Part shown: positions 17,952 through 62,137 of the stretch, piece by piece
Layout of the letters: each line of letters begins with the position of its first letter
Position numbering within the stretch: the stretch's first letter is position 1
Source: Haliotis asinina
Lineage: Eukaryota > Mollusca > Gastropoda > Lepetellida > Haliotidae
Length of the DNA: 64,000 nucleotides
Direction of reading: 5' to 3'
Assembly (NCBI RefSeq): GCF_037392515.1
Contig: NC_090280.1
Coordinates: forward strand, 20,150,618-20,214,617
Notes under the pieces: generated by a model
The model's database searches: none
What the model was told of the DNA's origin: nothing
What the model saw: only the letters and a program-made list of their open reading frames with translations
Made by a program: the position numbers and the translations under genes

Positions 17952-18000
17952 ATGGCGTGCTGGGCATGGGTCTGGCTGCTTACATCTATCCTCCTTTCAG
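17952..18000 (+). CDS. receptor exon 1: signal peptide
   Basis: ATG in good context (caagATGg) followed by the hydrophobic stretch WAWVWLLTSILLSG, a classic signal peptide. Ends in phase 1 at 'ctttcag|gtatgt'. An in-frame ATG at 17913 (aggATGa) would add 13 residues ahead of the hydrophobic core; I prefer 17952 because it gives a normal-length signal peptide and a better start context. Confidence 0.8.
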
Positions 18001-21000
18001 GTATGTTTTGTCACACGCGTGAAAATCCGAGTTAGAACTGATATTCAGAAACCTGTGCTTGTCTCCCCAGTGGAAATCCCAGCTAGAACTGATCTTCAGA
18101 AACCTGTGCTTGTCTCCCCAGTGGAAATCCCAGCTAGAACTGATCTTCAGAAACCTGTGCTTGTATCCCCAGTGGAAATCCCAGTTAGAACTGATCTTCA
18201 GAAATCTGTGTTTGTTTCCCCAGTGAAGAACCGGGTTAGAATTGATCTTCATGATTGTCATAATTGGCAACTAACGGGATCGTATGGTTTGGCTCACTGA
18301 CTTGGTTGACGCATGTCATCGTATCCCAGTTGTAAATATCGATGCTGTTGAACACTGGATAGTTTGGTCCACTATGTGTGAACCTCATTTCAGGTGTCCC
18401 TTGCTATGGTATTGCTGGAATATGGCTGGACATGGCGTAAAGCCTAGCTCGCGTTCCCACGCCCATGTCAGAGACAAAGGTTATTGTGATACACGTAATA
18501 GCAAATAGAGATTTAAATGTTGCAAATGGAATGTTGTTATACAGAAAGACTAAAGTTTCAAGGTATAGTAACGACCAGTGGCCCCTGAGACAATGCCCCT
18601 GGCATATATAAACGAGCCCACAGGGGCCCACAGGGTCTCATGGTTTAGTAGAGAGTTGCACGTGCAAGTTGCAAGGTCTGATCTTCAGCAACCCATGCTT
18701 GCCGTAAGAGGCGAGTAACGAGATCGGGTGGTCAGGCTCTCGGACTTGATTGACTCATGTCATCAGTACCCAGATCGATGCTCATGTTGTTGATCACTGA
18801 ATTTTCTGATCCAGACTCAATTATTTACAGACCGCCGCCCAATAGCTGGAATATTGTTGAGTGCGGCGTAAATCTAAACTCACTCACTAGTAGCGACTGT
18901 ATCAACCTTGCGTATTGATGCATACCCGTCAATCCGCCACTCAACATCATGAAACTCTTTAGCATGACAGTCCTGCTTCCTCCACAGTTTGGCAAATATT
19001 GAAAGAAGCAGTCATACAATCTCTGACACTTAGATTTAGGATTTGGGAGAACGGAGTGGTGGGTGGCGTTGGGGATGGGCGATTATGTGAAGTCCAAAGG
19101 TGTTCGGGTTAATGCTCAAAGAAAGAGTTTTTGTGGGTTGTAGGGGTGGGAGGGAGAAGAGAAGAAAGCGCACACACACGGGGCACACACACACACACAC
19201 TCGATCCACCCTTGAGCGGCCTAAGCTGGATAATGTGTGCTATATTATTATTTTGAATTGTGGCTTGATTCTATCCTCCAGGTGAGAGTGATGCTGCAAC
19301 ACTGAGTGTCACTGGATCAACTTCCATCGCAGTCGCCTCAACGAAGGAGATTCGTTTAACATGCACGTTTACACTCTCGGGGAACGAAACGGCCACGAGA
19401 CTCACCTGGAATGATCCAACAGGGGCCGAAATTCTTACATGGAACATTAAAACTTCTCCAGCAAGAAAATCCCCCTGGACAGCAAGCGCCTCCGGGACAA
19501 ATGCAACGGCCGTGCTGCCCCCTACATCCGTGACGAAGACGTCGGGGGGGGCGTACACATGCAAGCTTGCGTCTTCGACTGGAAATACGACAAGAAGTCA
19601 GACGGTTACTATACAGTGTAAGTGACAATGTTTCTGTCTGTCTGTCTGTTTTTTTATCGATGCACTCAGCATAATCCAGCTATATGGCATCGTACTATAA
19701 ATGATTGAATCTGGAACAGACAACCCAGTGATAAACAGCGAATATCGATCTACGCAAATGATATACGATGACGTGTCAATCAAGTCAGCGAGCATGACCA
19801 CCCGATCCTGTTAGTCGGATCTTTAGAGTATTTCTTACATGCAGTTGGGACACGATGGCATGTGCCAACCACGTCAGCGAGTCAATGTTAACATGATCGA
19901 TAGATTAGTTATGGTTGGGAAGAAAACTTAATGTGAAGAAGCAGATAAGGTCTCTGAGAGTCCATCTCGATGCATGCCAATGCTTCTCTCGTCTTCAGTG
20001 AGTTTCTCGATGGGGTAGCCTAGTGGTTAAAGCTCCACTCCTCACACCGAAGACCTGAGTTCTCTTCCCCACACGGTTGCAATGTGGTAAGCCCATATCC
20101 GGTATCCCAGCCGCCGGGGTATGTGATTGTTAGAGTGCTGGTAAAAGGGGCTTGAAACACAACTCACTCACTCATTCTGTCTCTTTTCGGGTTGATATCT
20201 TTAGATAAACCGACCGTGACTCTTAATCGCGGACGTACCTACGACGTCAACGAAGGCACACCGTTGTTACTGACGTGTACGGCACAGGCTCTACCGACGG
20301 CGACAATACAGTGGAAGAAGGGGTCAGCGATTCTCAGCAGCAAGTCAGGTAGGCTGGAACTTGTCCAAACAACAACCTGTACAATCCGGATGTTTGTTTT
20401 ATATTACTTTATAAACTGGACTACTTTCACTTTGTCAACATTTAGTACAGGTTTGATTATAGTCCAATACTGATTAGCTACACATGGCTTAAAACAGGGA
20501 TCGATACAGCTCACGGGGATCGATACAGCTCACGGGGATCGATAATCGTTATGTACATATGGATCGAGTATCGATAACTATCGGAGAAGTAACTGTAAGC
20601 AAATATGCAAAACAATGTCAGAAAGATATCTTTCTACCAACTGCGGAGTCGTGACTTGTGTACACATGCGGTACTAACAAAACATTGCCCTGAACAGAAT
20701 TTAGGAGCAGTCCAAATCAATATCAAACACTCCGTACTGTGTGGGTAAAAGACAGAAGTATTCTGTCAAGTAGGTTTATGAACCGTATTATAGTTGATGC
20801 TAGTTATATCGATAACCATTCATATTGTTTTCCTCTCGACGATATTTCTGTCTATCTTATTAGCCAGCACTAGTGTAAGGTCATTCAGTGCAAAGATAGT
20901 TCACTTTTATGTGTGACAGAATCATATGATGGTTGTAATCCCAGATTCTCTGAATGCACATTGTCATTTAGAAAGTGGTCAGGTGTAGCATATGTTATAA

Positions 21001-24000
21001 ACTTAACTCGATAACTTTCATCATGTGATTGTCCTTCACAGTGAACAAGAACAGGGCTGAGCGTGCTGATGCAGGGACATACACGTGCACGGCAACTAAC
21101 TCCAGAGGAAGTGCTACGGGGACAGTCGCCGTAACGATAAATTGTACGTATGACTACATCAGTGAGTGAGTGAGTGAGTGTGTCAGTCAGTCAATGTGTT
21201 GTTACGATATGCAAATATTGCACTGCGCTTGCAGCTGCAGTTACTGTAACAGTTCGATTCCGCAAATGAAATACCTGGATGTACCTATCCTTCTGTTCCG
21301 TGGTAACCTGGGGTGTCCCACTTCGAAGCCTTGGTTTGTTAAAACGGGTGAGTTTAGTTTTACGCTGCACCCTGAACTAGACAATCCAGTTATCAACAGC
21401 ATGAGCATCGATCTGCACAAATGGGAACCGATGACATGTTTCAACCAAGTCAGTCTGGCCACCCTATCCCTTTAGTCGCCTCTCCCGACGAGCATGGTAG
21501 CAAGCATGGGTTGCTGAAGACTATTCTACCCTGGATCTTCACGGGACTTGAAATACGTCTCATATATGACTGATGGTATCCTGGTGAACGGTAAGGTGAT
21601 GTGCCACGACAGACAGATACTCCCCAAACTCCAGACATCCATTTACAGCCGTGAGTCACGGAATAACAAATGCTTTCACATATACATGCCTAAATGCCTA
21701 GCACCATCTAAAAGCCAAAACGACCCTATAGGGCAATGTCCCTGCTCACGATTCCTCAGAACCTATTGCCAACCACTTTTTCTCGCTGACATTTTCATGC
21801 AAGCTTACTCTTTCTTTGAATACTGGTACACAGGTTTGCGAAGATTCGTTTTTCCGCTGTGCATTCATTCTACGTACAGAAACTAGCATTATAATGGCGG
21901 AGGGATGATAGGGGTAGCCTACTGGTTAAAGCGTTCGCTCGTCACGCCGATGCCTCGGGTTTGCTTCTCCACATGGGTACAACGTGTGAAGCCCATTGAT
22001 ACTTTCCCCGCCGCGATATTGCAGGACAGTTGCTAAAAGCGGTGTAAAACCAAACCCACTCACTCGCTCACGATACTGGCGATATTCGTCCAGATTTGTA
22101 ACTGATAGACAGGGTTGCCGTGAGATGTCTGTTGTAGGTTAAACTTACGGAAGGTAGTGTCAGGAATGCCTCTCAATGTGAAGAGGAACTATGAACAGTG
22201 TTCAGCTAATTGTAACCATTTCAACGATTACACCAAGGGTTCTAACTTGTGAAGATTAGAATAGCATTGAGCTGCCCTTTCTTGCCGAAAGAGACATGAC
22301 ACGGTGTCGAATGTCAGGTATAATCTCTGTGAAGATTAGAATTACATTAGGCAGCCCTGGCTTGTCGCTCGTTGATCAGGCCGGACGCTGAACACTAGCA
22401 AACTAGCACGTATTAAGGATACTTGTCATATTTCCTTCTCTTGTTCTTCAGACCTAGATGTCCCGAGGATGGAGATATCAGTGAAGAACACTACAGTGAA
22501 GGAGAATCAAACGGTGACCATCTCCTGCAGAGTTAGCAGCGTTCCAACTCCTACACTGACCATCACCGGACCATCCGCCCCGGTGACCAGAACCAGCACA
22601 TCGAGCACATCGGCCTCAACCACTTTCAAAGCCAGGTGTTCCGACACAGGAACTTATCGATGTAAAGCAGTTAATACAAAGGTTCAGCGGTCACCGAAGG
22701 AGGACAGCACAACATTGCGTGTATTGTGTGAGTATAAAGTGAGTGAGTGAGTGAGTGAGTGAGTGAGTGAGTGAGGTCACGAAAACACCGCGGGTATTGT
22801 GTGAGTATAAAGTGAGTGAGTGAGGTCACGAAAACACTGTACATATTGTGTGAGTATAAAGTGAGTGAGTGTGTGAGTGAGGTCACGAAAACACTGCGTA
22901 TATTGTGTGAGTATAAAGTGAGTGAGTGAGTGAGTGAGTGAGTGAGGTCACGAAAACACCGCGTGTATTGTGTGAGTATAAAGTTTGTAGGTACGTGGGT
23001 GGATGAGTAAGTAAGCGAATGATTGAACAAGTGAGTGAGTGGGAGTGAGTGAGTAAGCGAATGAGTGAACGAATGAGTGAGTGAGTGAGCGAATGAGTGA
23101 ACGAATGAGTGAGTGAGTGGGAGTGAGTGAGTGGGAGTGAGTGAGTAAACGAATGAGCTACTGAGTGTGGGAGCGGGAGCGGGAGTGGGAGTGAGTGCGT
23201 GGGTGGGTGGGTGGCAGAGTTAGTAAGTGTGTGTAAGTGAGTGAGTGGATGGGTGGGTGGTAGAGTGAGTGAGATGAGTTATGACTGTGAATGCTATACT
23301 TGACGTCTTCAGTAGCGTGACGAACACTTTAACCTAATGTCCAGAGCTAACTTACACGAAACATTAAGACAGAGCTAATAGTGAATTACAGATTACTGAA
23401 GGGCTACTTTCACAAATTAGTACTCCATGCTATCTTCTGGGATCTATGATAACAATGACGACACCTGCGTCAGTTAAAATACTTTCGTCGTTTCATACAT
23501 TTTGAAAAGGATGGCGAAATATATCACCTCATTTGACTGCAAATTTATGTATGTTGTAGTTTGCGGCAAATGAACAGAATAGTCGTGTATTCTTAATGTG
23601 TCCTCAAACCTACAGGACTTTGAAAATGAATTATTAGTTGTTCCCCCTTTGTTACACTCAATGATGGGGGAAGAAACTGTTTTATTCATGAGAAAAGGAT
23701 TGGATACAAATTATGCAACTTATACACCCTCTACGTAGTATTTACATAATATTTTTACATTCATTATACAATTGAGATGGACAGACAAGAACAGAAAGAT
23801 GAAAAAGAGTGGAACACTTGCAACAATTTATCAAAATCAGTTTGACTGACAGATATATTGTAGAACAGTTCTAAATATGTTCTGATTTATATGAACAGTC
23901 AGATCTGCATTGCCATGGAATGGTAACTCTGTGTTTATATTCAGATTGGCAACACTGCGGAAATTAGTCATCATGGTAGTTCTGACCCGTGAAGGTCTCT

Positions 24001-27000
24001 AGTGTAGAACAGGCCTTCAGCAACCCATGTTTGCCATAAAAGGCGACTAACAGGATCGACTGGTCAGGCTCGCTGACTTGCTTGACAATTGCGCAGATCG
24101 ATGCTCATGTTGTTGATCACTGGATTGTCTGGTCCACACTAGATTATTTACAGATCGCTGCCATGTAGCTGGAATATTGTTGAGTGCGGCGTAAAACTAA
24201 ACTCACTCACTCACATCCTGGTAGTTCTCTTTTGACTATATAACTGACAGTCAAATAGATAATGATAAGAATTTTCACAAACATTTCCACAAGTACAACT
24301 TGGGTTACCTCGGAAGAGATCATGATTCAGTTATGGGGCTGCGCAATAAAACCGGTTTACCCGTATTTATCGGTTCAGACATGAAATCGATACGTATTTC
24401 GATACCCTGATCGAAAACCGCCATTTTCGACATGCAATCGGAAAACTTCGTAACACGTTGTTCACACTGGAAATCAAGTTAAGTTTTTTGGTTTGGAGTT
24501 GTGTTCTTCATTTTTGTTCAGGTGTTTTGCAGTGTTTTGGATCTGAATATTATAAATATTTATTCATTAATGACTAGTGATCTCTGATAACCAGGTCAAG
24601 TTATATAGTCCCGGGGCTTTTGGAAGAGTGGAGAAACTATTACCACTATGTTGATGTTACAGTGTTCATTGTTGTCTTCATTTTGACATGATTAAAAGTT
24701 TTCATTAAAGCTTAATCAAGGGTAAAGAATTTATTGTCTTCGTAAGTTAATTATAAGTATTTTGGGGTTTTTTTTAGTTTTTTGTATTTTTTATTTGCTT
24801 TCCAATCGCAGTATGAAAATACTCTGTCTTACCCATCCCTATTCAGTCATAACAATTTGTCTGGTTCATTCAGTACCACATTGACACCAAGAACAAAATT
24901 ATTGGGACTGTTCTCTCTATCAACTAGTGAAATGTTCTTTCTAACCAGGCAAGCCACGTCAGCGAACAAGCAGTCCTCAAAATGTGACCAAGATGGTGTC
25001 CGAGTCTGCGATATTCACCGTCAACGTCATCGCCGACCCTCCTCCTCAGTATACGTGGAAGATCAAATATCCAGATACTGGTTTCGTTAGAGAATTGCAG
25101 AACAGGTCTGACCATATTGCAATAATCAAGAAAAACTTGATGACATCGCTGAACGTCACAGTAGAAAACGCTGACGACTACGCTCAGTATATCCTTGAGG
25201 TCATGAACGGAGAAGGGGCGACAACTCTAAATTACTGGCTTCGTTCTCAAAGTAAGAGTTTGTGGTTTGATGTTTAAAATTATTTTTTATGAAATCATGA
25301 ACGAACTGATAAGCAGTACAACCATATTTATAACCCTGGCTAGCTATTCTCGAAACGTTTGTAGCCTTACGAGCTTCGATAATTTACTCCGATCAAAGTG
25401 TTGAATTCTTAGGGCTACGAACGTTTCGAGACCAAGAATGGGTTTACGGGTTTAATTGTTTCAAAACACGTCACAAATAAGAAACTGTATTGTAAATAAT
25501 TATGTCATGAGTCTGAAGATAAGGTGTTTTATGTCAGCAACTTTCGTGTACAACAGGGGCGGTGGGGTGGACTAGTAGTTAAAGAGTTCTCTCGTCACGC
25601 CGAATACCCGGGTTCGATTCCCCACATGAATACAGTGACTGAAGCCTATTTCAGGATCTTTCAACTGTTAGTTTGCAGGACGCCTGGATTAGAGTTAAGA
25701 TGGCCGTATTTTAATGTATGGCACGTACGACTATCTTAGCATGACGAGGGTTCGAAATTTCATGCGACTGAATATTGTAAAAGGCGTCTTAAAACCATAC
25801 TCGCTCACTATGGATCAATGTTTAACCCTAGCTGCTTGTGATTCACAAGATGGTTAAAAGTAATCATCCTACCGGGTACCCAATCTTTGCCGGACTCTCG
25901 AATAACTCGATTGGGGTCGTGACGCTCTCGGGCCATTTCCGGTCACACCGTCGTGGTATTATTGTGTTTGACTCACCAGTTGTAACCAAATGAAAAATTA
26001 ATGTATTTGGTAGTTCATTGGTATAAGCCTTTGCTCCTTACGCTGATACCGCAACCTTTAAATTTCCGATAACTATTTCTGGTTTCCTGCAAAGTCGTGA
26101 GGCTGGAATGTTGCTAATAAAAGAGTAGAAGAGTACTCACATAGTCTAGAATCAACAGGGGCAATAAGTTAGCCTAATATATATGCACATGAGTCTGGTT
26201 CTACGCCGCTGTTTGCAATATTCCAGCAATATCACGGCGTAGGACACCAGAAGTGTGTTTCAAACATTACACCTATGTTAGGAGTTATCCTAGTAGTTCG
26301 TCTCTACGATAACCCGGTTTGATTTCACACATTGGTTCGATGTGTTGAATCCATTTTGTGACCCCCGCCCTGGTATGTCTGGAATATTGCTAAAAGCGCA
26401 AAACGAAACTCACTAACTCACATTATTCAAGTTGTATGTCAGATCTATATAAATGTATTCTTCCGGCTAGAATATTGATCTTCATCAACCCATGCGTGTC
26501 GTAACTAACGGAATACGGTGGTCAGGCATGTCATCGGTTCCCAATTGCGCAGATCGATGTTCATGCTGTTCATCACTGGATTGTCTGGTTTAGACTCGAT
26601 AATTTACAGCAATATTGCTGAAAGCTGCTTGAAACTAAACTCACTCTCTCTAAATTAGATATGTTGTTTGTTAAGCGGCGCCGTTCAGGGTTCAAGACCT
26701 AGAAGCGGCTAAAGTGACGACAGATTCCATCACCGTACGCTGGACATCGGCCTTCGACGGCGGTGCTCGGCAACAGTATCACCTACAGTACCAGACCACA
26801 CTGGACAGGGAGAGGCGGGTCTGGACACAGAAGACAGCCATGATTGAAGACCCCGGTCGGAAGAATGTGGTGAAGGCAACCATATCAGACATCCACCCTG
26901 GTAGAACGTACACCGTTAGAATATTCTCCAACAACACTTTTGGGAACAGTGAATATTCCAACAGCATCAACCTCACGACGTTAGGTAGGAATTCGATTAT

Positions 27001-29628
27001 TGTCACATACTTCATCACATGGATGATAGCATAGTTCACAGGCAAACCGTAGTGCAAATACGGTTGCGCAGGAAAAGAATATGACCAGTCTTCTTATACG
27101 CGAGCGAAGCCAGCAAATGTTGGCAACGCATGTCCATCGCTTCGGTCGAAAACTATTTTTCATGGCAAAATAAGATATCACCACCATCAGGTATACACCC
27201 ACTTCTTCAATGGTTTGTGCTTTCAGATTTCCAACCCCATGTTGACTAATTACTCACGTGAAATATATTTTATTCAACATTTAAGGACAATTCGTGGTTT
27301 ATCACGTTTTTCATCTCCAATCCCCGTGTCAGCATGCGGTTCAGCGGAATGAAGGAACAAGAGGGCATTATTTCATTTGCAATACTTTTAGAGTTAGCTC
27401 CCTTGCTTCATTCGCCCACTACGCTAGAAGTGATTTATGTAGAATAAATTCTAGGAAACGTTTAACAATAACGACAACAGATAAGACAAATAAACTCCAA
27501 CAGGTTCATGCTAAAATTAGGCAATATGATATTTCTTTTTTTTAATTTCTGCTTATTCTTGTTCCTTCACTCCGTTGAACCGGAAGCTGACGGAGGTAAC
27601 TGAGGCGAAGAACGATCTGAATACCACAAGTGGCGCTTACAGTGTTTTGTTTTATTGGTTTTTTATTATTATTTATAGTGCCAGAACAGTTGTCGGGCGA
27701 GGCTGGGATTGGGATAGGCCTTGCAATAGCCATCCTTCTTGTAGCAGTAATCATTGGGTGCCTAGTGCTGTGGATTAAAGTGGTTCGACCAATGAGAAGT
27801 AAGTAAGATAACTGCGCATGCGCATTATGACGTCTATAACCCATGAAATCTAAAGACGTCTCTCTGTTGTATTGTTGAGGAAAATGCGAGATGACGTCAT
27901 CCATTGTTCATGAAGTCACGAGTTTATCACATTTTGTCATTTAAACAAACGACTACAATTTACCCGAGTTACTTAGCTTAGCTAAATATACGTAAATATA
28001 CCTACTGAAATAGCAGAAATAACGTGAAACGTGAATTCACTTATTATGACTCCACTTTGCAGATAAGGAAAAGAAGAAAACTGGACTGTAAGTTCATATG
28101 CATTTTAACTATAACCAACGCTGATGTAAAGGGTTTTACTGTTTTTATATCAAATACTAGTACTGTATTTTATGCGATTCTCGATGTAGGCGACAACGTT
28201 TGAGGGAATAATGTAACCTTAAAATGCAGTTAAGGATGTTTGAGATATGAGATATGGCATCAGAGCAGCGGTGTACTTTAGTGGTCTAGTGGGCTCGTCA
28301 ACCCGAAGGCCCGAGTTCGATTCGCCTTATGTTTGAAGCCCAGTTCTGATGTCCTCCGCCATGATATAGCTGGGATATTGCTAAAAGCGGCGTAAAACTA
28401 ATCTCACTCACTCACTAAATGAGTGAAAAAAACGTCCATCTGGGGTCCGTGTACACAACCCAAAACCAACGAATACCGATCATAGTGTAAGGTTGACATG
28501 TATAATTGGCCCGAAAGATATTGTATAGTAAGGAGAAAATATGCATGACATGGAAAGCTTTTGAGAAGATCATCCTGTGTTGTCTTTTCTCAACTCTCGT
28601 TATCGCTATGACTCACTTGTTTTGCTTGATTCTTAGAAAGATCAACAATTCAGAATACGACCCACAATCGGTTGAAAATGCAGGTATGTCAATAAGTGAA
28701 CCATGCATAACGGCCTTATTGTCCAGGCAAGTGAACACACACATGATCACATTATAGTTCAGATACGTCATCATGTCAGCATGTCAACACACACAATCAC
28801 CCCATTCTCTAGGTATGTCACAACACGATCAATCACCTAATTCTCCATGTCAACATCCAGATGACGTTTCTTTAAAAAGACAAATATCTCAGAAAATATA
28901 CGAATGGTGCGAATAAGAAATGACTTTGTGGCTATCATCCCAGTGTATGTGTGAATATTTTTATTGACCTAGGTATGTCCCATTATTCTCACCTGGACGT
29001 AAACACCCGTGAAAAGGATTCGCCGGAGATGTATGATGACCTGAACAATGCACCGGTATACCAGAACTACAACCATCCACAGAATAGTAAGTGAGACAGT
29101 TGGTTAGTAAGGATATTGTAGTTGGATGAAAGAAGGGCTGAATGGGTTGATGGGTGAGTACAGGGTCGATGAATGAGTAAGGGGTGGGTGAGTGAGTCGG
29201 AGAGTTGACTGGTAAGGATACGGTGGGTGGATTGGTGGTTGAATGTGTGACTGAGTGGGTGGGTTGGTGGTTGGTGGGAGTAGAGAGATGAGTGAGTTGG
29301 GGGTGGGTGATTTGGGGGTGGGTGGGTAGTAGGTGAGGATATGGTCTGTGTATGACTGAGGGGCTGAGTAGTGGGTGAGTTTATGAGTGAGTTGTTATAA
29401 GTTAGGTTGTGCGCCCTTCTGGCAGTATTTCAGCTATATCCGGGCTGCTTAATAATGAGTATGGGCAGCAACAATTTTAGACGTTCATTACTTCAAGCAT
29501 GGAATTGTGCTGACAAAGCAAGAATCCTAACCAGTACGAATTAGAATTTGAACCTAGACTATCTGTTCTTGCCTTGAAAAATAAGCATGCCTGAGTCAGC
29601 CTCTTTTTCCATTCATACTAGTCACTAT

Positions 29629-29662
<34 letters not shown>

Positions 29663-31141
29663 GATGATGGTGCATTGCAGATTCACCAGGTGCAGTCTCA
29701 CCCGAAGTTTACATGAACCTCTCTGGTCTTAAAGAAAACGGTAAGCTTGAAACAAACATCCTCTTCTTTTTCCATTGAACAGAGCACAATGCCAATTCAT
29801 TTTGGCAGAGAGACAATGAACTTGACTAGACTATGCATGTGTTTGTCTTGGGTGACAGCCTCTTATTATAACTCCTTCATAGCGATGGGATCGTGAGGTC
29901 AGATTCGCTGACGTGGTTGATGCTTGCCAACATGGCCACATAGACTGACAGATCACACTCACTCACACACTCACACAAATCACACAACACTATTGAATTT
30001 TAAAGGCATGGTGTGTAGAACATGTACAACATGCTTGAATGCCTCTCTTTCTCACTCATTCTGGATTTTTATTTGTTGTTGTTGTTGTTTCCAGAAAAAG
30101 AACCCAAAGACAAGAAAGAAAACAAAAAGAAAAAGAAGCAAGGAAAAGCCAAAGACCAAACCGAGGGTTATGAGAATAGGGCCACACAGGGTATAAGTCG
30201 TATTATTTTCAAAAATGCTTTCCCATATATACTCTACATGTATATGTACTCCCATATGTACTTACATATGGATATATGCATCCTAGTGTGTATAAATTCT
30301 CCTCATCTACTGATATGTGCATTCACTCTAAGCTTGTACACATTCAACCCTCATTTACATCAACGTGTAGTATTGAACATAGAAAATGCCATCATTGCCG
30401 GTCGGGGTATCGAGTCAAGGTATGGGTGTCAACCAGGTTACGGGTGCCAAGTAAGCTACCTACAGGTGTCAAGCAAGGTACTGGTCTGAAGAAGGGGATG
30501 GGTGTAAAGCAAGATACAGATGTCAAGTTAAGTACGGGTGTCAAGAAGGGTACGGGTATCAAGTAAGGTACGGATTTCAAGCAAGGTACGGATTTCAAGC
30601 AAGATACTGCTGTCAAGCAAAATACGATCAAGTGTCACATAGGGTACAGGTGTCAACCAGGGTACGGGTGTCAACCAGGGTACGGGTTTCAAGCAAGGTA
30701 CGGGTGTCAAGCATTGTACGGGTGCCAGGCAAGGTACAATGTGATATGTACGTTGCATGACATTAACATTGTTGAGGTTGGTCCGTCACTTCTGGGCATG
30801 TCTGGCACAGACATATTTGTCTAGCATATCGGGAACGGCGAGGTAGCCTAGCGGTTAAAGCGTCTTTTCGTCACGCTGAAGACCCGAGTTCTCCACATGG
30901 GTACAATGCGTGAGGTCCATTTCTGGTGTTCATATTTTTGGGATTTTGCTAAAGGTGGCGTAAAACCAAACTCACTCACTCCAGCGTACTGGTAAGGTGC
31001 TTCTTATCATATGTATCCAACCTAACTGTACTTTCAGGAAATGATTCTGCGCATGTCAAAAACAGGCATGTTCGACGCCATAAACACAGGCCGGATGCAT
31101 ACCAAAATACTGAAATACAATATTATACAGGTTTGGAGTAG
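17952..31141 (+). CDS. Ig/FN3 receptor with tyrosine motifs (gene span)
   Basis: Fourteen exons join in frame to 2,085 nt (694 codons plus TAG). Order: signal peptide 1-17; Ig1 about 24-128 (C44, W59, C110); Ig2 129-210 (C153, W165, C192); Ig3 211-302 (C236, C281, no core Trp); Ig-like 4 303-403 (W present, both cysteines replaced); FN3 404-506; TM about 517-539; basic juxtamembrane and a 150-residue tail with Y562, Y575, Y591, Y600, Y619, Y654, Y682, Y690. Y575 and Y591 form YSHL-x12-YDDL, within ITAM spacing; the first also fits the ITIM pattern SxYxxL. YQN, YMN, YEN and YQN are Grb2-type SH2 docking patterns. Known of the family: such proteins act in adhesion or immune-type signalling at the plasma membrane. 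Ligand and exact orthology are unknown; nephrin-like or immune-receptor-like are both possible. An in-frame upstream ATG at 17913 would give 707 aa. Confidence 0.88.
18020..18243. repeat. 51-bp tandem repeat in intron 1
   Basis: 'gat(c/a)ttcag' recurs at 18040, 18091, 18142, 18193 and 18244, an exact 51-bp period. The unit equals the first part of family S2 ('gttagaactgatcttcag') plus local sequence, so an S2 head appears to have been amplified in tandem. The 17-codon frame stays open on both strands by arithmetic only. Confidence 0.92.
18239..18446 (+). mobile_element. repeat family S2
   Basis: Continues directly from the 51-bp array: 'gttagaattgatcttcatga', 'ggctcactgacttggttgac', 'catgtcatcgtatcccagtt', 'atgctgttgaacactggat', 'attgctggaatatggctgga', 'ggcgtaaagc'. 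Confidence 0.82.
18680..18886 (+). mobile_element. repeat family S2
   Basis: Well-kept copy: 'gatcttcagcaacccatgct', 'gtaagaggcgagtaacgaga', 'gatcgatgctcatgttgttg', 'attatttacagaccgccgcc', 'agctggaatattgttgagtg', 'cggcgtaaatctaaactcac' with (ACTC)n tail. Confidence 0.9.
19172..19203. repeat. (CA)n microsatellite
   Basis: Short CA runs interrupted by GGG, inside intron 1. Confidence 0.8.
19282..19617 (+). CDS. receptor exon 2: Ig domain 1
   Basis: Acceptor 'ctatcctccag', donor 't|gtaagtg'; 336 nt, phase 1-1. Residues 17-128. Shows the Ig pattern: C44 in 'LTC', W59 in 'LTW', Y108-x-C110 in 'AYTCK'. One exon encodes the whole domain. Several NxT sites (N51, N90, N118) could carry N-glycans. 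Confidence 0.92.
19665..19815 (-). mobile_element. repeat family S2 (intron 2)
   Basis: Minus-strand copy: 'ataatccagctatatggcat', 'gacaacccagtgataaacag', 'gtgtcaatcaagtcagcgag', 'gaccacccgatcctgttag'. Confidence 0.85.
20008..20177 (+). mobile_element. SINE S1 (intron 2)
   Basis: Head 'tggggtagcctagtggttaa' with intact A box, then 'gcaatgtggtaagccca', and tail 'ctcactcactcattc'. Its tail ends only 27 bp before exon 3. Confidence 0.88.
20205..20348 (+). CDS. receptor exon 3: first half of Ig domain 2
   Basis: Acceptor 'gatatctttag', donor 'tcag|gtaggc'; 144 nt, phase 1-1. Residues 129-176, with C153 ('LLLTC'), 'LPTATIQW' (W165). The domain is finished by exon 4, so this Ig domain is split by an intron, unlike the others. 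Confidence 0.9.
20349..21041 (+). other. receptor intron 3
   Basis: Contains a perfect 24-bp tandem duplication at about 20498-20545 (gggatcgatacagctcac type) followed by a further partial unit. Ends 'tgtccttcacag'. Confidence 0.8.
21042..21143 (+). CDS. receptor exon 4: second half of Ig domain 2
   Basis: 102 nt, phase 1-1, residues 177-210. Has the Ig signature 'DAGTYTC' (C192) and 'ATNSRGSATG'. Donor 'aatt|gtacgt'. Together with exon 3 it gives an 82-residue I-set-like domain. Confidence 0.92.
21355..21545 (-). mobile_element. repeat family S2 (intron 4)
   Basis: Minus strand: 'ttttacgctgcaccctgaac', 'gacaatccagttatcaacag', 'catgagcatcgatctgcac', 'caagcatgggttgctgaaga'. Confidence 0.88.
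21910..22071 (+). mobile_element. SINE S1 (intron 4)
   Basis: 'aggggtagcctactggttaa', 'gcgttcgctcgtcacgccga', 'gggtacaacgtgtgaagccc', 'ccgccgcgatattgcaggac', 'taaaagcggtgtaaaacc', with CTCACT tail. Nearly full and well preserved. Confidence 0.92.
22452..22727 (+). CDS. receptor exon 5: Ig domain 3
   Basis: Acceptor 'ttgttcttcag', donor 'ttgt|gtgagt'; 276 nt, phase 1-1, residues 211-302. C236 ('VTISC') and C281 ('DTGTYRC') are present; the usual core Trp is replaced ('TLTIT'). An extra C273 may pair elsewhere. Read-through of the donor meets a stop after eight codons. Confidence 0.9.
22728..23280. repeat. GTGA minisatellite carrying copies of the exon 5 donor
   Basis: The exon 5 end plus its donor ('attgt|gtgagtataaagtgag') is repeated, so donor-like sites lie at 22728, 22801, 22850, 22907 and 22972, with 'gaggtcacgaaaacac' between them. 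The array then decays into GTGA/GAAT units to about 23280. Confidence 0.93.
23281..24007 (+). other. receptor intron 5, unique part
   Basis: Unrecognised AT-rich intronic DNA; no exon-like frame with both splice sites seen. Confidence 0.5.
24008..24214 (+). mobile_element. repeat family S2 (intron 5)
   Basis: Well-preserved copy: 'cttcagcaacccatgtttgc', 'ggcgactaacaggatcgact', 'gatcgatgctcatgttgttg', 'agctggaatattgttgagtg', 'cggcgtaaaactaaactcac'. Confidence 0.92.
24949..25251 (+). CDS. receptor exon 6: Ig-like domain 4, cysteine-less
   Basis: Acceptor 'ctttctaaccag', donor 'caaa|gtaaga'; 303 nt, phase 1-1, residues 303-403. The fold pattern is clear ('ADPPPQYTW', then 'ENADDYAQYILEV', 'NGEG'), but the two core cysteines are replaced by Val and Leu. 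Such disulfide-free Ig domains are known elsewhere (for example CD2 domain 1), so the domain can still fold. Confidence 0.85.
25346..25431. repeat. foldback element (intron 6)
   Basis: Arms 'tctcgaaacgtttgtagcc' (from 25348) and its complement 'ggctacgaacgtttcgaga' (to 25431) surround about 40 bp. Looks like a small MITE. Confidence 0.8.
25557..25810 (+). mobile_element. SINE S1 interrupted by about 90 bp
   Basis: Head 'ggcggtggggtggactagta', 'cgggttcgattccccacatg' (B box intact), then from about 25660 unrelated sequence, then the SINE end 'gaatattgtaaaaggcgtct' and 'actcgctcac'. Confidence 0.8.
26187..26422. mobile_element. inverted pair of SINE S1 copies (intron 6)
   Basis: Minus-strand partial copy 26187-26285 ('tctacgccgctgtttgcaat', 'ccagcaatatcacggcgtag') joined head-on to a plus-strand copy 26286-26422 ('tcctagtagttcg', 'cccggtttgatttcacacat', 'ctggaatattgctaaaagcg'). 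Confidence 0.82.
26468..26651 (+). mobile_element. repeat family S2 (intron 6)
   Basis: 'gaatattgatcttcatcaac', 'cagatcgatgttcatgctgt', 'catcactggattgtctggtt', 'aatttacagcaatattgctg', 'aaactaaactcactctctct'. The tail ends 24 bp before exon 7. Confidence 0.85.
26676..26984 (+). CDS. receptor exon 7: fibronectin type III domain
   Basis: 309 nt, phase 1-1, residues 404-506. FN3 marks: 'APFRVQDLEAAKVTTDSITV' is typical of the first strands, 'VRW' core Trp, 'YHLQY', 'IHPGRTYTVRIFS', 'GNSEYS'. The acceptor must be 'tttgttaag' at 26675; the stronger-looking 'ccgttcag' at 26688 would put a stop in frame, so I reject it. Confidence 0.9.
26985..27678 (+). other. receptor intron 7
   Basis: No repeat or further exon recognised; ends in 'attattatttatag'. 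Confidence 0.6.
27679..27798 (+). CDS. receptor exon 8: transmembrane segment
   Basis: 120 nt, phase 1-1, residues 507-546. A glycine/isoleucine/leucine-rich membrane span of about 23 residues (517-539) is followed by 'KVVRPMR', the positive stop-transfer side. Donor 'gagaa|gtaagt'. Confidence 0.92.
28063..28087 (+). CDS. receptor exon 9: 25-nt microexon
   Basis: Acceptor 'ccactttgcag', donor 'ggact|gtaagt'. Encodes a basic juxtamembrane stretch NKEKKKTG. Enters in phase 1 and leaves in phase 2; exon 10 restores phase 1, so the two exons must be spliced in or out together to keep frame. Confidence 0.8.
28267..28416 (+). mobile_element. SINE S1 (intron 9)
   Basis: 'agtggtctagtgggctcg', 'cccgagttcgattcgcc', 'gaagcccagttctgatgtcc', 'gctaaaagcggcgtaaaact', CTCA tail. 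Confidence 0.85.
28637..28683 (+). CDS. receptor exon 10
   Basis: 47 nt between 'ttgattcttag' and 'gcag|gtatgt'; phase 2 in, phase 1 out. Residues about 555-570, 'KINNSEYDPQSVENA', with Y562 in YDPQ, a possible SH2 site. Confidence 0.8.
28973..29086 (+). CDS. receptor exon 11: ITAM-like pair plus YQN
   Basis: 114 nt, phase 1-1, residues 571-608. Acceptor 'ttattgacctag', donor 'aata|gtaagt'. Contains YSHL (575-578), twelve residues, YDDL (591-594), then YQN (600-602). YxxL-x(6-12)-YxxL is the ITAM definition, so spacing is at its upper limit. YQN is a Grb2-type docking pattern. Three signals in 38 residues make this the densest part of the tail. Confidence 0.87.
29090..29400. repeat. GTGA/GGGT-type degenerate repeat (intron 11)
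   Basis: Irregular 'gagtgagt', 'gggtgggtga' and 'ggttggtgg' words following the exon 11 donor. Confidence 0.75.
29629..29669. repeat. (GAT)n microsatellite
   Basis: About 12 GAT triplets, ending 11 bp before exon 12. Confidence 0.9.
29681..29740 (+). CDS. receptor exon 12: YMN cassette
   Basis: 60 nt, phase 1-1, residues 609-628. Acceptor 'tggtgcattgcag', donor 'aacg|gtaagc'. Carries Y619 in 'EVYMNL', which fits both YxN and YxxL. Confidence 0.87.
29874..29965 (+). mobile_element. repeat family S2, fragment (intron 12)
   Basis: Only the middle remains: 'gatgggatcgtgaggtcaga', 'tcgctgacgtggttgatgc', then a tail-like 'cactcactcacacactcac'. Confidence 0.5.
30095..30190 (+). CDS. receptor exon 13: lysine-rich segment with YEN
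   Basis: 96 nt, phase 1-1, residues 629-660. Acceptor 'tgttgtttccag', donor 'cagg|gtataa' (weaker than the others). A highly basic KKKKK-type run precedes Y654 in 'GYENR' (YxN). The basic run could bind acidic lipids or act as a localisation signal; that is inference. Confidence 0.82.
30395..30750. repeat. 18-bp minisatellite (intron 13)
   Basis: About 19 units of 'gtgtcaagcaaggtacgg' with changes. Because 18 is a multiple of three it gives hexapeptide-repeat frames on both strands (96 and 79 codons), which I do not call as genes. Confidence 0.92.
30835..30981 (+). mobile_element. SINE S1 (intron 13)
   Basis: 'gaggtagcctagcggttaaa', 'cgtcacgctgaagacccgag', 'gggtacaatgcgtgaggtcc', 'ttttgctaaaggtggcgtaa', CTCA tail. 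A few bases of the B box ('gttcgattcc') are deleted, so the copy is probably dead. Confidence 0.88.
31038..31141 (+). CDS. receptor exon 14: last exon, YQN and C-terminus
   Basis: Acceptor 'tgtactttcag'; coding to TAG at 31139-31141. Residues 661-694: a basic 'RHVRRHKHR' stretch, then Y682 in 'DAYQNTE' (YxN) and the end 'QYYTGLE', whose YTGL is another YxxL. A donor-like 'gtttgg' at 31131 is weak; the stop 9 nt after it supports a terminal exon. No clear AATAAA was found in the next few hundred bases. Confidence 0.8.
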
Positions 31142-58202: not shown

Positions 58203-58328
58203 ACTTGATCCTTTCCCCATTCATGAGTCAGATCCAGAGAAAAATCTTCAAACATCATCTCAAACGACCGCTGGCCTATTGAACCCTCTGTGCTACGAGA
58301 ATCCGCAACAAAAGGCCGATCAGCCATT
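58203..58328 (+). promoter_or_regulatory. 5' UTR with upstream ORF
   Basis: A good acceptor ('gttttaatttgtag') ends at 58202, so the coding exon probably starts at 58203 and an untranslated exon lies upstream. The first ATG (58223) opens 19 codons and stops at 58280, 48 bp before the main start. Such uORFs usually lower translation of the main frame. Confidence 0.55.
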
Positions 58329-59891
58329 ATGGGCCATTTCATATGTGCAAGAAACAGCAAAGTTTTCAAGATTTTTGTATATTTTCTTTACGTTCAAATG
58401 TTAATACTGTTCGCATTGTTTCTCAAAGGATTATACAGAAATGTATTACGTCCTAATGCCACACTCAGTCAAAAGGAGATGCAGACTGAGACAACTAGAC
58501 TACTTAGATATTCAAACAAAACAACAGAACATATTCGAAGTGATCATGATGCTGTATATCCGCAAAGTGAGATAAATATGGACTGTGCCCAAAAAGATAA
58601 CGACAGACTGCTTCCATTCAGATCTGGAGAATCCTGGCGTCTCGAAAAGTGGTATCACTCAATAGATCATTTCTTTTCCATCAACAACACTCAACTTCTC
58701 GATCTTCCTGAAGATGATGGACATAATCTATATGAAGATTACGATCTGAAGAAGCCGAGAAATTTCACTCTTCCTGATCACGATAATGAGGAATTTACAT
58801 TCGAAAACGGAAAGCCTAAATGTTTTAAATCAGGCACATCCAAGGTACTTGGGAAGGGGTCTAACGCGACATGTGTTTGTGGCTCAAGTTATGCAGGAAA
58901 ACATTGTTCTGTGCCCCAAATCGTTAAGACTGCCTTGTCCAAATTGCCTCGCAGTTATATCATCACCCCAAGAGAAAAGCCACGGCGGATAATTCTAGCC
59001 ATGACATTCAATATGGAGCATCATGTTCTCATGCTTAAGATGCTACAAGTGCATTCAGCCGTGGATCTGTTTGTGATACTGGAATCAAACTATACCGGAC
59101 ATGGTGATCCGCGGCCTTTGAGGTTATTACACAATTTGAGACGAGGATACATGAAGCGATTCCACCACAAGATAATGCACGTTTATCTCGACACCTTTCC
59201 AGCAGGTGGACGAGCTAATGGTTGGATTGCTGAAACATACATCCGAGAGCAACTTGCACCTGCTGTTGAGAAGAGAGTCTCAGGGCTCAGAAAAGATGAT
59301 TTATTCATATTTTTGGACACGGATGAAACGCCATCAGTGAACCTCCTACACTTCCTTAAACTTCACAATGGCTATCCCTTCCCTGTGGGATTTGTTCTTC
59401 AAAATTTTATATATGGATTCTTTTGGTTAAATAAAAATTCAAAAACCGTTATCGGTGTGACTACTATCCAGATGCTAAGAGACATCTATAAAGGCAATAG
59501 TGATGCAATTCGTGGGAGTAAAGGTGTAATACAACAGCTCCAAAAAGGAAGTCACCCCTGGGGTATGTTTGAAACCTGGCTTATCGGATCACCTGACAAC
59601 TATGCAGGATGGCATGCATCATGGTTCTCCTCGCCAAGGGAGGTAATCACGAAGCTGACTTCCGCTATTAATGCTGACTTTCCCCGATGGGGAGACTATC
59701 CAGAGAAATGTACATTTCACTATGTTGCTACTCTGTTCAGAAAGGGGGAATACTTTGATGGGAAGGTCAAATTTGATCCAATTTGCTTTAAAGACATATA
59801 TGTATTGAAAGACCTTTCTTATCTGTTCAAGTACAAAAAATACTTCAATTTTATGTTACAAAATCCAACAGCAAAAGACGTAATATTTTGA
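58329..59891 (+). CDS. MGAT3: GT17 N-acetylglucosaminyltransferase, MGAT3-like
   Basis: Encodes 520 aa. Known of the family: MGAT3 (GnT-III) adds the bisecting beta-1,4-GlcNAc to the core mannose of N-glycans in the Golgi, using UDP-GlcNAc. Seen here: a short N-terminal cytosolic part, a signal-anchor at about 12-35, a stem to about 160, an EGF-like Cys cluster (165-193: CFKSG...CVCGSSYAGKHC), then the GT17 domain from about 218: 'DLFVILESNYTGHGDPRPL', 'FPAGGRANGWIAETYIR', acidic 'FLDTDETPS' (330-333 DTDE, likely metal/nucleotide-sugar site), 'YGFFWLN', 'GWHASWFSSP', 'DFPRWGDYPEK'. Length and single coding exon match vertebrate MGAT3 (about 530 aa). Start chosen at 58329 (attATGG, strong context); the frame is open further upstream but without an ATG. 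Whether it makes bisected glycans in this animal is not shown; invertebrate GT17 members may differ in activity. Confidence 0.92.
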   Translation: MGHFICARNSKVFKIFVYFLYVQMLILFALFLKGLYRNVLRPNATLSQKEMQTETTRLLRYSNKTTEHIRSDHDAVYPQSEINMDCAQKDNDRLLPFRSGESWRLEKWYHSIDHFFSINNTQLLDLPEDDGHNLYEDYDLKKPRNFTLPDHDNEEFTFENGKPKCFKSGTSKVLGKGSNATCVCGSSYAGKHCSVPQIVKTALSKLPRSYIITPREKPRRIILAMTFNMEHHVLMLKMLQVHSAVDLFVILESNYTGHGDPRPLRLLHNLRRGYMKRFHHKIMHVYLDTFPAGGRANGWIAETYIREQLAPAVEKRVSGLRKDDLFIFLDTDETPSVNLLHFLKLHNGYPFPVGFVLQNFIYGFFWLNKNSKTVIGVTTIQMLRDIYKGNSDAIRGSKGVIQQLQKGSHPWGMFETWLIGSPDNYAGWHASWFSSPREVITKLTSAINADFPRWGDYPEKCTFHYVATLFRKGEYFDGKVKFDPICFKDIYVLKDLSYLFKYKKYFNFMLQNPTAKDVIF

Positions 59892-60836: not shown

Positions 60837-62127
60837 ATTTTTTACAGATTAGAATGAAAATGCAGCAGAGAGGGTTCGGGTGATCCTGGCACAGTCAGGC
60901 TGGTCAAGCTCATCATCAGCTCAGGGCCCTCGCCCCCTCTACACGCAGCCCAGACAGCGAATGGGACTTCTCCCAGGAAACACTGCCTAGTCGAACCCAC
61001 CAAGAACTTTCCGGAGAATATGGAGGCTCCCCAACACTGCAGCCTTCTGCATTACCCAGATTGTCAGAAGGGCTGTGCTCCCGGTGGAGAACCCGGGCAC
61101 TCTCTTCATCTGCGCCAAGAGATCAGGAGGTACCAAACCAAGGGCACCGAGAACAATGCGGAGCCTGACGACAGTGTACTTGGGATTCAAGCGAGACATT
61201 TCAAAGGCGAGGTCCGCATATTTATCATGTTTTTCCTGAATCTTGCCAATCACATTGCTGTCAAAAGGGACAGAAAATTCTATGATATAAATAATTTCAT
61301 TGGCTTTATCAAAAAGAACAAGATCAGGTTTGTTGGCTGGAATTCGTCTCAGGCTGTATATTGGCCTATTCCAGAGGAGTTTAAAAGCATCATTTTCCAG
61401 GACATCCTGGACATGTTCAGGGTCATACCATGGATGGACCTCGGAGTCAAAGCCACAGGCATGGCGGAGACGATAATAAAAGCAGCGAGCCATGCCATCA
61501 TGTCTTTTAAGATATGCTGTTTGTGCCAAGGAAGGGCATCCACTGACAAGGTGTTGGACAGTCTCTGTAAATTGATTGCAAAGACGACATTTCATATTGA
61601 TGTTTTCTTTAAGAATCACATTCTGGCGATTGCGAGTGGGAAGTGACTGGTCCTGAGCAGCAAAAAGGAAGCCCTCAGTTTCACATTTGAGACCAGCCGA
61701 CTTCATCCAGGCGAAGGAGTCGGTTGGATTGCTGTTCTGTTCCACACACTGCATATACACACGATGCAGTGGCTTCTCAGACAGCTTCTCCACAAAGGAC
61801 CGACTCTGGGCAGATTTGGTGAAAGACTTCACCTGGTTTACTCCCATCACTGTACCGTCCAGCAGTACATCGCCATCAACAAAATCAACTTCAAATTTCA
61901 AATTGTGTCCAACAACCTTGGCACGCTTAAAGTAGCTGTGGAATTCCTTGCTTTCATCATGAATCTTGACGTGCATCACCAGAGGATCATCTGACAAATA
62001 AATATGTGCAAAAGTACACAATAACATTCTGTCATGAAGAGCTTCCACATTAATCAAACCCCGACCTCCCGAATTGATTGGCATATATAAACGATTAAGA
62101 GAGGAACGAGGGTGGTGTGCTCTGTTA
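60837..62127 (-). mobile_element. 5'-truncated LINE with restriction-like endonuclease
   Basis: The insertion is bounded by 'ctgacttatt' on both sides (60827-60836 and 62128-62137), a target-site duplication. On the minus strand it carries an open frame without breaks and ends in an A-rich tail (seen as 'ttattattttttac' on the plus strand). The truncated 5' end, direct repeat and tail are the usual marks of LINE integration by target-primed reverse transcription. Confidence 0.82.
60987..62084 (-). CDS. LINE ORF C-terminus: zinc knuckle and RLE
   Basis: The 365 codons (frame open further upstream to the 5' truncation) start just after the RT palm/thumb ('NRLYMPINSGGRGLINVEA'). A zinc knuckle follows: C166-x2-C169-x8-H178-x4-C183. 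Then a restriction-like endonuclease of the PD-(D/E)XK type: P253-D254 in 'KPDLVLFD', E269 in 'IIEFSVP', and K285/K288-Y289 in 'EKHDKYADL'. RLE-bearing LINEs (R2/NeSL/CRE-like groups) nick their target with this domain. No stop or frameshift, so a recent insertion, but the RT domain is missing and it cannot act alone. Confidence 0.82.
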   Translation of the reverse strand: MPINSGGRGLINVEALHDRMLLCTFAHIYLSDDPLVMHVKIHDESKEFHSYFKRAKVVGHNLKFEVDFVDGDVLLDGTVMGVNQVKSFTKSAQSRSFVEKLSEKPLHRVYMQCVEQNSNPTDSFAWMKSAGLKCETEGFLFAAQDQSLPTRNRQNVILKENINMKCRLCNQFTETVQHLVSGCPSLAQTAYLKRHDGMARCFYYRLRHACGFDSEVHPWYDPEHVQDVLENDAFKLLWNRPIYSLRRIPANKPDLVLFDKANEIIYIIEFSVPFDSNVIGKIQEKHDKYADLAFEMSRLNPKYTVVRLRIVLGALGLVPPDLLAQMKRVPGFSTGSTALLTIWVMQKAAVLGSLHILRKVLGGFD

Positions 62128-62137
62128 CTGACTTATT

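Follow-up and report, generated by a model that had tools for sequence, protein, structure and literature searches.

A predicted Ig-FN3 receptor gene of the abalone Haliotis asinina with a tyrosine-motif tail, and its expanded family, concentrated on one contig

Introduction

Vertebrate leukocyte-receptor-type families are clustered Ig receptors with ITIM/ITAM-type tails on small exons. In nephrin, Sns and SYG-2, Ig domains are combined with one FN3 domain, a transmembrane helix and a tyrosine-rich tail. Whether ITAM/ITIM-type immune-receptor signalling with clustered families is present in protostomes, or was reinvented there, is an open question.

In an excerpt of PMC11999971, the oyster receptor CgIgIT2 is described as five Ig domains, a transmembrane region and an ITAM; for oyster Ig receptors the excerpt speaks of activation in its text, while two titles that it cites speak of inhibition. 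Excerpts of PMC8092387 and PMC4503800 report that in fly the ITAM of Draper recruits Shark, and that Corkscrew, the fly SHP-2 homologue, opposes Draper signalling and acts through an ITIM isoform. Invertebrates and jawless vertebrates typically have a single Syk-family kinase, as stated in an excerpt of PMC9601881. In the literature searched, which left most subscription journals outside its coverage, we found no gastropod report of ITAM/ITIM-type Ig receptors and no account of an Ig-FN3 array with a YxSI/YxN exon.

Here we describe a predicted receptor gene in a 64,000-nucleotide stretch of Haliotis asinina DNA (the window), together with its relatives in the same genome. The assembly has 1.14 Gb in 159 contigs, and the contig of the window, C1, makes up 106 of its 1143 Mb. 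The main result lies beyond the window: ectodomain relatives of the receptor concentrate on the same contig, where the stretch C1:15.27-15.62 Mb contains a single tail exon 20 times over.

Results

Conceptual splicing yielded a receptor of 14 exons (17952-31141, plus strand) and 694 amino acids with no internal stop, the same 14-exon gene that the original prediction had drawn from the letters alone. All splice sites are GT-AG with consistent phases, and exons 11-14 join in frame with exons 1-10 (17952-28683). The exons up to the juxtamembrane region are as follows.

17952..18000, plus strand: exon 1, start codon and signal peptide MACWAWVWLLTSILLS; in-frame ATG, GT donor, signal peptide assigned by eye
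19282..19617, plus strand: exon 2, Ig domain 1, V-set-like; Pfam V-set, Ig_3 and Ig_2 at E 8e-5 to 1.4e-4
20205..20348, plus strand: exon 3, first part of Ig domain 2; Ig_2 at 4.2e-14 for exons 3 and 4 combined
21042..21143, plus strand: exon 4, second part of Ig domain 2; Ig_2 at 4.2e-14 for exons 3 and 4 combined
22452..22727, plus strand: exon 5, Ig domain 3; Ig_3 at 1e-10
24949..25251, plus strand: exon 6, Ig domain 4, which lacks the usual cysteine pair; I-set at 3.8e-6
26676..26984, plus strand: exon 7, FN3 domain; fn3 at 3.5e-10
27679..27798, plus strand: exon 8, transmembrane helix with no internal charged residue (by eye)
28063..28087, plus strand: exon 9, juxtamembrane exon of 25 bases

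Scanned against Pfam as a whole, the protein had Ig domains and one fn3 domain over the cut-off, and no other family. When the domains were scanned singly, Ig2, Ig3 and Ig4 each passed a Pfam cut-off; Ig domain 1 fell just under it for V-set, Ig_3 and Ig_2.

Among the best 60 of 144 PDB matches, most were adhesion Ig proteins (CEACAM5, Dscam, neurofascin, contactin-2) and none was nephrin. These matches are consistent with an adhesion molecule of the nephrin/Sns/IgCAM type, whose tail would dock Nck, Crk or Grb2 for actin control. The single FN3 domain just before the transmembrane helix, which is the nephrin/Sns layout, points the same way, as does the tail site Y603 YNHP, which we take to match the Crk YxxP type. 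However, PDB ranking among Ig proteins is unspecific, and the repeated units on one contig described below would suit a fast-evolving recognition family better than a conserved adhesion gene, so that we regard this reading as unlikely on balance.

By eye, the introns of the receptor gene contain minisatellite-like repeats (window 22730-23270 and 30430-30740). The window also holds a glycosyltransferase-like open frame of 554 codons (58227-59891, plus strand) and a 381-codon open frame that resembles part of a reverse-transcriptase-type mobile element (60987-62132, minus strand), both named by eye.

The tail is encoded by the last five exons.

28637..28683, plus strand: exon 10, Y562 YDPQ
28973..29086, plus strand: exon 11, phase 1-1, Y575 YSHL (28984-28986), Y591 YDDL (29032-29034), Y600 YQN (29059-29061), Y603 YNHP
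29681..29740, plus strand: exon 12, phase 1-1, Y619 YMNL, which is both YxN and YxxL (29710-29712)
30095..30190, plus strand: exon 13, phase 1-1, lysine-rich stretch and Y654 YEN (30169-30171)
31038..31141, plus strand: exon 14, Y682 YQN (31100-31102), Y690 YTGL (31124-31126) and the stop

Splicing reproduced the residue numbering proposed earlier (Y575, Y591, Y600, Y619, Y654, Y682), the pair YSHL-x12-YDDL, which fits Yxx[LI]-x6-12-Yxx[LI], and the full row of four YxN sites (YQN, YMN, YEN, YQN). Two YxxL sites come on top of that list, Y619 YMNL and Y690 YTGL. The doubts voiced at the time stand as well: with a spacing of x12 the pair fails the classical ITAM form Yxx[LI]-x6-8-Yxx[LI], and the position about -3 of the first tyrosine is not acidic (residues 571-575 read GMSHY). 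The SxYxxL alternative also holds, in that SHYSHL fits the ITIM consensus [SIVL]xYxx[LIV], through the serine at -2 and as the one such site in the tail. No NPxY was present in the tail sequence.

Nine of the ten tail tyrosines (all except Y689) presumably sit in some SH2 motif type, which is weak evidence because these motifs are so permissive. The YxxL sites all fit the plain endocytic Yxx-hydrophobic motif too. What stands of the original prediction, an Ig receptor with an ITAM-like tail, is thus a single-pass Ig/FN3 protein with a tyrosine-motif tail whose sign is open; a classical x6-8 ITAM it is not. Such a tail had also been called unusual in a protostome, a view that does not stand: it is not without precedent, because Draper-Shark in fly and the ITAM of oyster CgIgIT2 have been described (excerpts of PMC8092387, PMC4503800 and PMC11999971).

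We compared the tail (153 residues) with 200,000 shuffles of itself, and the p values that follow are uncorrected for the choice among motif types. An ITAM pair (x6-12) had p 0.009, at least four YxN sites p 0.018 (mean of 1.2 YxN per shuffled tail), at least four Yxx[LI] sites p 0.0006, and the ITAM pair jointly with at least four YxN sites p 0.0002. At least one ITIM match occurred in 15% of shuffled tails. A genome search with the transmembrane and tail sequence recovered six exons of the gene itself and, beyond these, a weak match (E 2.5, 29% identity) that we judged to be chance; as far as this search goes, the window tail is single-copy. This single-copy state, the YxN sites that shuffling alone supplies and the value for the ITAM pair, uncorrected for multiple looks, would all be compatible with a chance run of motifs in a disordered asparagine-/lysine-rich tail, its YxxL sites being purely endocytic. 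The four Yxx[LI] sites and the joint value argue against it, as do the tyrosine-motif tail exons found in related genes, and we consider chance improbable.

Searching the genome with the ectodomain (E<=0.001) gave 31 exon matches, six of them the gene's own and 25 non-self, and these counts are a lower bound with 87 of 372 candidates scored. The non-self matches lie on C1 (16), C2 (4), C8 (3), C4 (1) and C26 (1), the last of which scores the same as a C1 match and is perhaps a second copy of it. Ig4-like and FN3-like matches occur together in two loci (L065 and L071), and a further locus (L072) has an Ig4-like match. By this likeness the window gene belongs to an expanded family of Ig-FN3 receptors in the same genome.

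Downstream of the FN3 exon we read nine related regions (L073, L074, L075, L077-L082), in which tail exons are the predictions of a simple splice scorer. Phase 1-1 exons with tyrosine motifs lie 3' of FN3 in four of the nine (L073, L075, L081, L082). The relative at C2:89.17 Mb has exons with YDNV and YCN, and a further YCN exon with weak splice signals; the one at C1:6.33 Mb has a tail exon with YTEI; and the one at C1:15.49 Mb has YTQM with YENT, followed by YEDV-x7-YESI-x4-YQN. The relative at C8:7.06 Mb (L082, C8:7054650-7060650; also L103) carries a YSDI-x7-YEDL exon of classical ITAM spacing, which is single-copy in a genome search, and a further exon with YEHL-x10-YQNI whose 3' end we placed by eye, the donor there being weak. 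The stretches read in the other five regions contained no convincing motif tail (L077-L080, with L074 uncertain).

With the tail exon of the C1:15.49 Mb gene as query, the genome gave 23 matches, all on C1. Twenty lie on the minus strand within C1:15.265-15.616 Mb, two of these with an internal stop, and the others are at 12.43, 13.27 and 13.35 Mb.

C1:15265160-15618406, minus strand: array of tandem Ig-FN3 and tail-exon units, with a tail of the kind YEGV-x7-YESI-x4-YQN

The FN3 domain of the same gene matched 36 times; 33 of these matches, that of the window gene included, are on C1, and 14 lie within the array. A tail exon follows at most 9 kb downstream in 12 of the 14 array FN3 exons and is absent in two, and 8 of the 20 tail matches in the array lack a neighbouring FN3 match of their own. 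A further eight FN3 relatives at C1:12.06-13.26 Mb, with 33-76% identity, possibly form a second receptor cluster.

For comparison of the tail exon we took 20 of the 23 copies, namely 18 from the array (L083-L087, L089-L092, L094-L102) and those at 12.43 and 13.27 Mb. In [VL]xYxS[IL]xxSxYxN both tyrosines, both serines and the asparagine are conserved in 20/20, so that every copy fits the ITIM consensus via [VL]xYxS[IL] and has a YxN. It should be borne in mind that all copies were identified through their similarity to one of their number and that the pattern itself demanded the core residues, although no copy failed it. An upstream tyrosine is present in 15 copies, as YEGV in seven and YEDV in three, and absent in five. 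A relaxed [LIVM] pair occurs in 15/20 and the strict ITAM in 1/20, and on this count we discarded the idea that an ITAM defines the family. The ratio pN/pS was 0.40 over the last 16 codons and 0.55 over the last 26, where a two-codon insertion in three copies misaligns the upstream columns.

We then set a profile built from 15 of the 20 tail exons against the window tail. It scored 1.3 bits, and 694 of 20,000 shuffles did as well; for exon 11 alone the figure was 1,220 of 20,000. These shuffles led us to reject the profile as proof that the window tail is homologous to the array tail exon, and the spacing of the pair differs too, at x12 in the window against x7 in the array. The same profile gave raw scores, taken without shuffles, of 7.7 bits on the C2 exon and 4.1 on the C8 exons. 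What the window gene and the array do have in common is their ectodomain ancestry and a style of tail, a phase 1-1 exon with YxxL/I close to YQN.

A scan of the genome for SH2 domains returned 49 matches of 82 candidates, the exons being named by eye apart from those compared with PDB, of which one (L039) could be given no assignment. SHP-2-like exons lie at C16:47.016-47.017 Mb, where the N-SH2 exon reaches E 5e-72 against PDB and is adjoined by a C-SH2-like exon (by eye). A Syk/ZAP-70-type N-SH2 is split over two exons at C7:18.13 Mb (E 7.9e-15 and 1.7e-16 against PDB). Some 91 and 106 kb downstream, at 18.04 and 18.03 Mb, the same strand has exons of tyrosine-kinase type that may belong to the same gene, in a search in which 142 of 748 candidates were scored; no second SH2 was seen at the C7 locus.

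On C5, three SH2 exons that resemble one another (41907900, 41977069 and 42013941) span about 106 kb and looked Grb2-like by eye. We dropped this identity after the one fragment tested, of 44 residues, matched the C-SH2 of SHP-2 above Grb2; the 2.5 kb downstream of that fragment, mostly minisatellite, held no rest of an SH2 domain. On C3, two SH2 exons 3.3 kb apart (68070654 and 68073911) are both Csk-like by eye and represent tandem genes or a duplicated exon.

The SHP-2-like exons bear on an inhibitory receptor, in which the YxxL/I sites would recruit SHP-2 and so shut off neighbouring signals. SHYSHL in the window gene and the ITIM-type match in all 20 family tail exons favour this, as do the two oyster titles on inhibition cited in the excerpt of PMC11999971. 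The window gene itself offers one consensus site, by a serine at -2, of a kind that 15% of shuffled tails also supply, and for this gene we find the inhibitory reading unlikely on balance.

In an activating ITAM receptor, phosphorylated Y575 and Y591 would recruit a tandem-SH2 kinase of the Syk/Shark type, and the YxN row would add Grb2-Ras signalling. The wide ITAM form of YSHL-x12-YDDL agrees with this, and so do the Syk/ZAP-70-type N-SH2 exons with kinase-type exons downstream on their strand, the classical spacing in the C8 relative and the Draper-Shark precedent (excerpts of PMC8092387 and PMC4503800). Against it are the x12 spacing and the residue at -3, together with a family tail exon that seldom forms a strict ITAM and in a quarter of copies (5/20) lacks the upstream tyrosine. 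We regard an activating ITAM receptor as quite unlikely.

Discussion

We conclude, with a probability of roughly 0.6, that the window gene encodes a single-pass cell-surface receptor built of four Ig domains plus one FN3 domain, which belongs to the Ig-FN3 family as a divergent member and has a phosphotyrosine docking tail. A contact or recognition receptor whose docking tail is modular is the most likely description. Exons 11, 12 and 13 are of phase 1-1, so that skipping or duplication of any one of them would in principle preserve the reading frame; with at least one motif on each, the tail looks like a modular docking platform. A docking or switching role is likelier than a dedicated ITAM because of the family pattern: YxxI/L stands beside YxN, the repeated exon is of ITIM type, and classical ITAM spacing occurs in one relative.

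In such a receptor, ligand binding would cluster the molecules and Src-family kinases would phosphorylate the tail. The YxxL sites might then serve as binding sites for SHP-2-type or Syk-type SH2 proteins, the reader depending on the family member, and the YxN sites for Grb2-type adaptors, with an output that could tune haemocyte or contact signalling. Phosphorylation, partners, ligand, cell type or tissue and the sign of the signal are what we infer for the receptor.

Within one genome, a docking exon that recurs, a relative whose ITAM spacing is classical, and candidate readers of the SHP-2 and Syk types make up a directly testable set. A tentative and, on present evidence, doubtful extension is that the tandem Ig-FN3 array, with its tail exon of YxxV, ITIM-type YxSI and YxN, and the single-copy relatives form a system like the leukocyte receptor complex on a gastropod chromosome. 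The C8 relative would bring a classical ITAM to it and the window gene an ITAM-like pair with four YxN sites, and activating and inhibitory tails might be mixed by phase 1-1 exons, independently of vertebrates.

Among described systems, oyster CgIgIT and CgIgIT2 (Crassostrea gigas) resemble the window gene as single-pass mollusc Ig receptors with ITAM/ITIM-type tails; CgIgIT2 differs in its five Ig domains, and neither an FN3 domain nor a YxN row is described for it in the excerpt, the comparison being by description only (PMC11999971). Draper in fly and MEGF10 in mouse are likewise single-pass receptors, and a Syk-family kinase recognizes their ITAM (excerpts of PMC8092387 and PMC4503800). 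They have an EMI/EGF-type ectodomain and NPxY, whereas the window protein has only Ig and fn3 over the Pfam cut-off and lacks NPxY. Nephrin, Sns and SYG-2 share its layout, but the window gene has fewer Ig domains and its related units stand in tandem. The leukocyte-receptor-type families of vertebrates resemble the abalone family in organization, being also clustered Ig receptors with ITIM/ITAM-type tails. The Haliotis family differs in its Ig and FN3 ectodomain and in having YxN beside YxxI, and the likeness need not mean orthology. Clustered relatives that carry an inhibitory-type motif beside a Grb2-type motif nonetheless hint at a mollusc counterpart of the vertebrate leukocyte receptor families.
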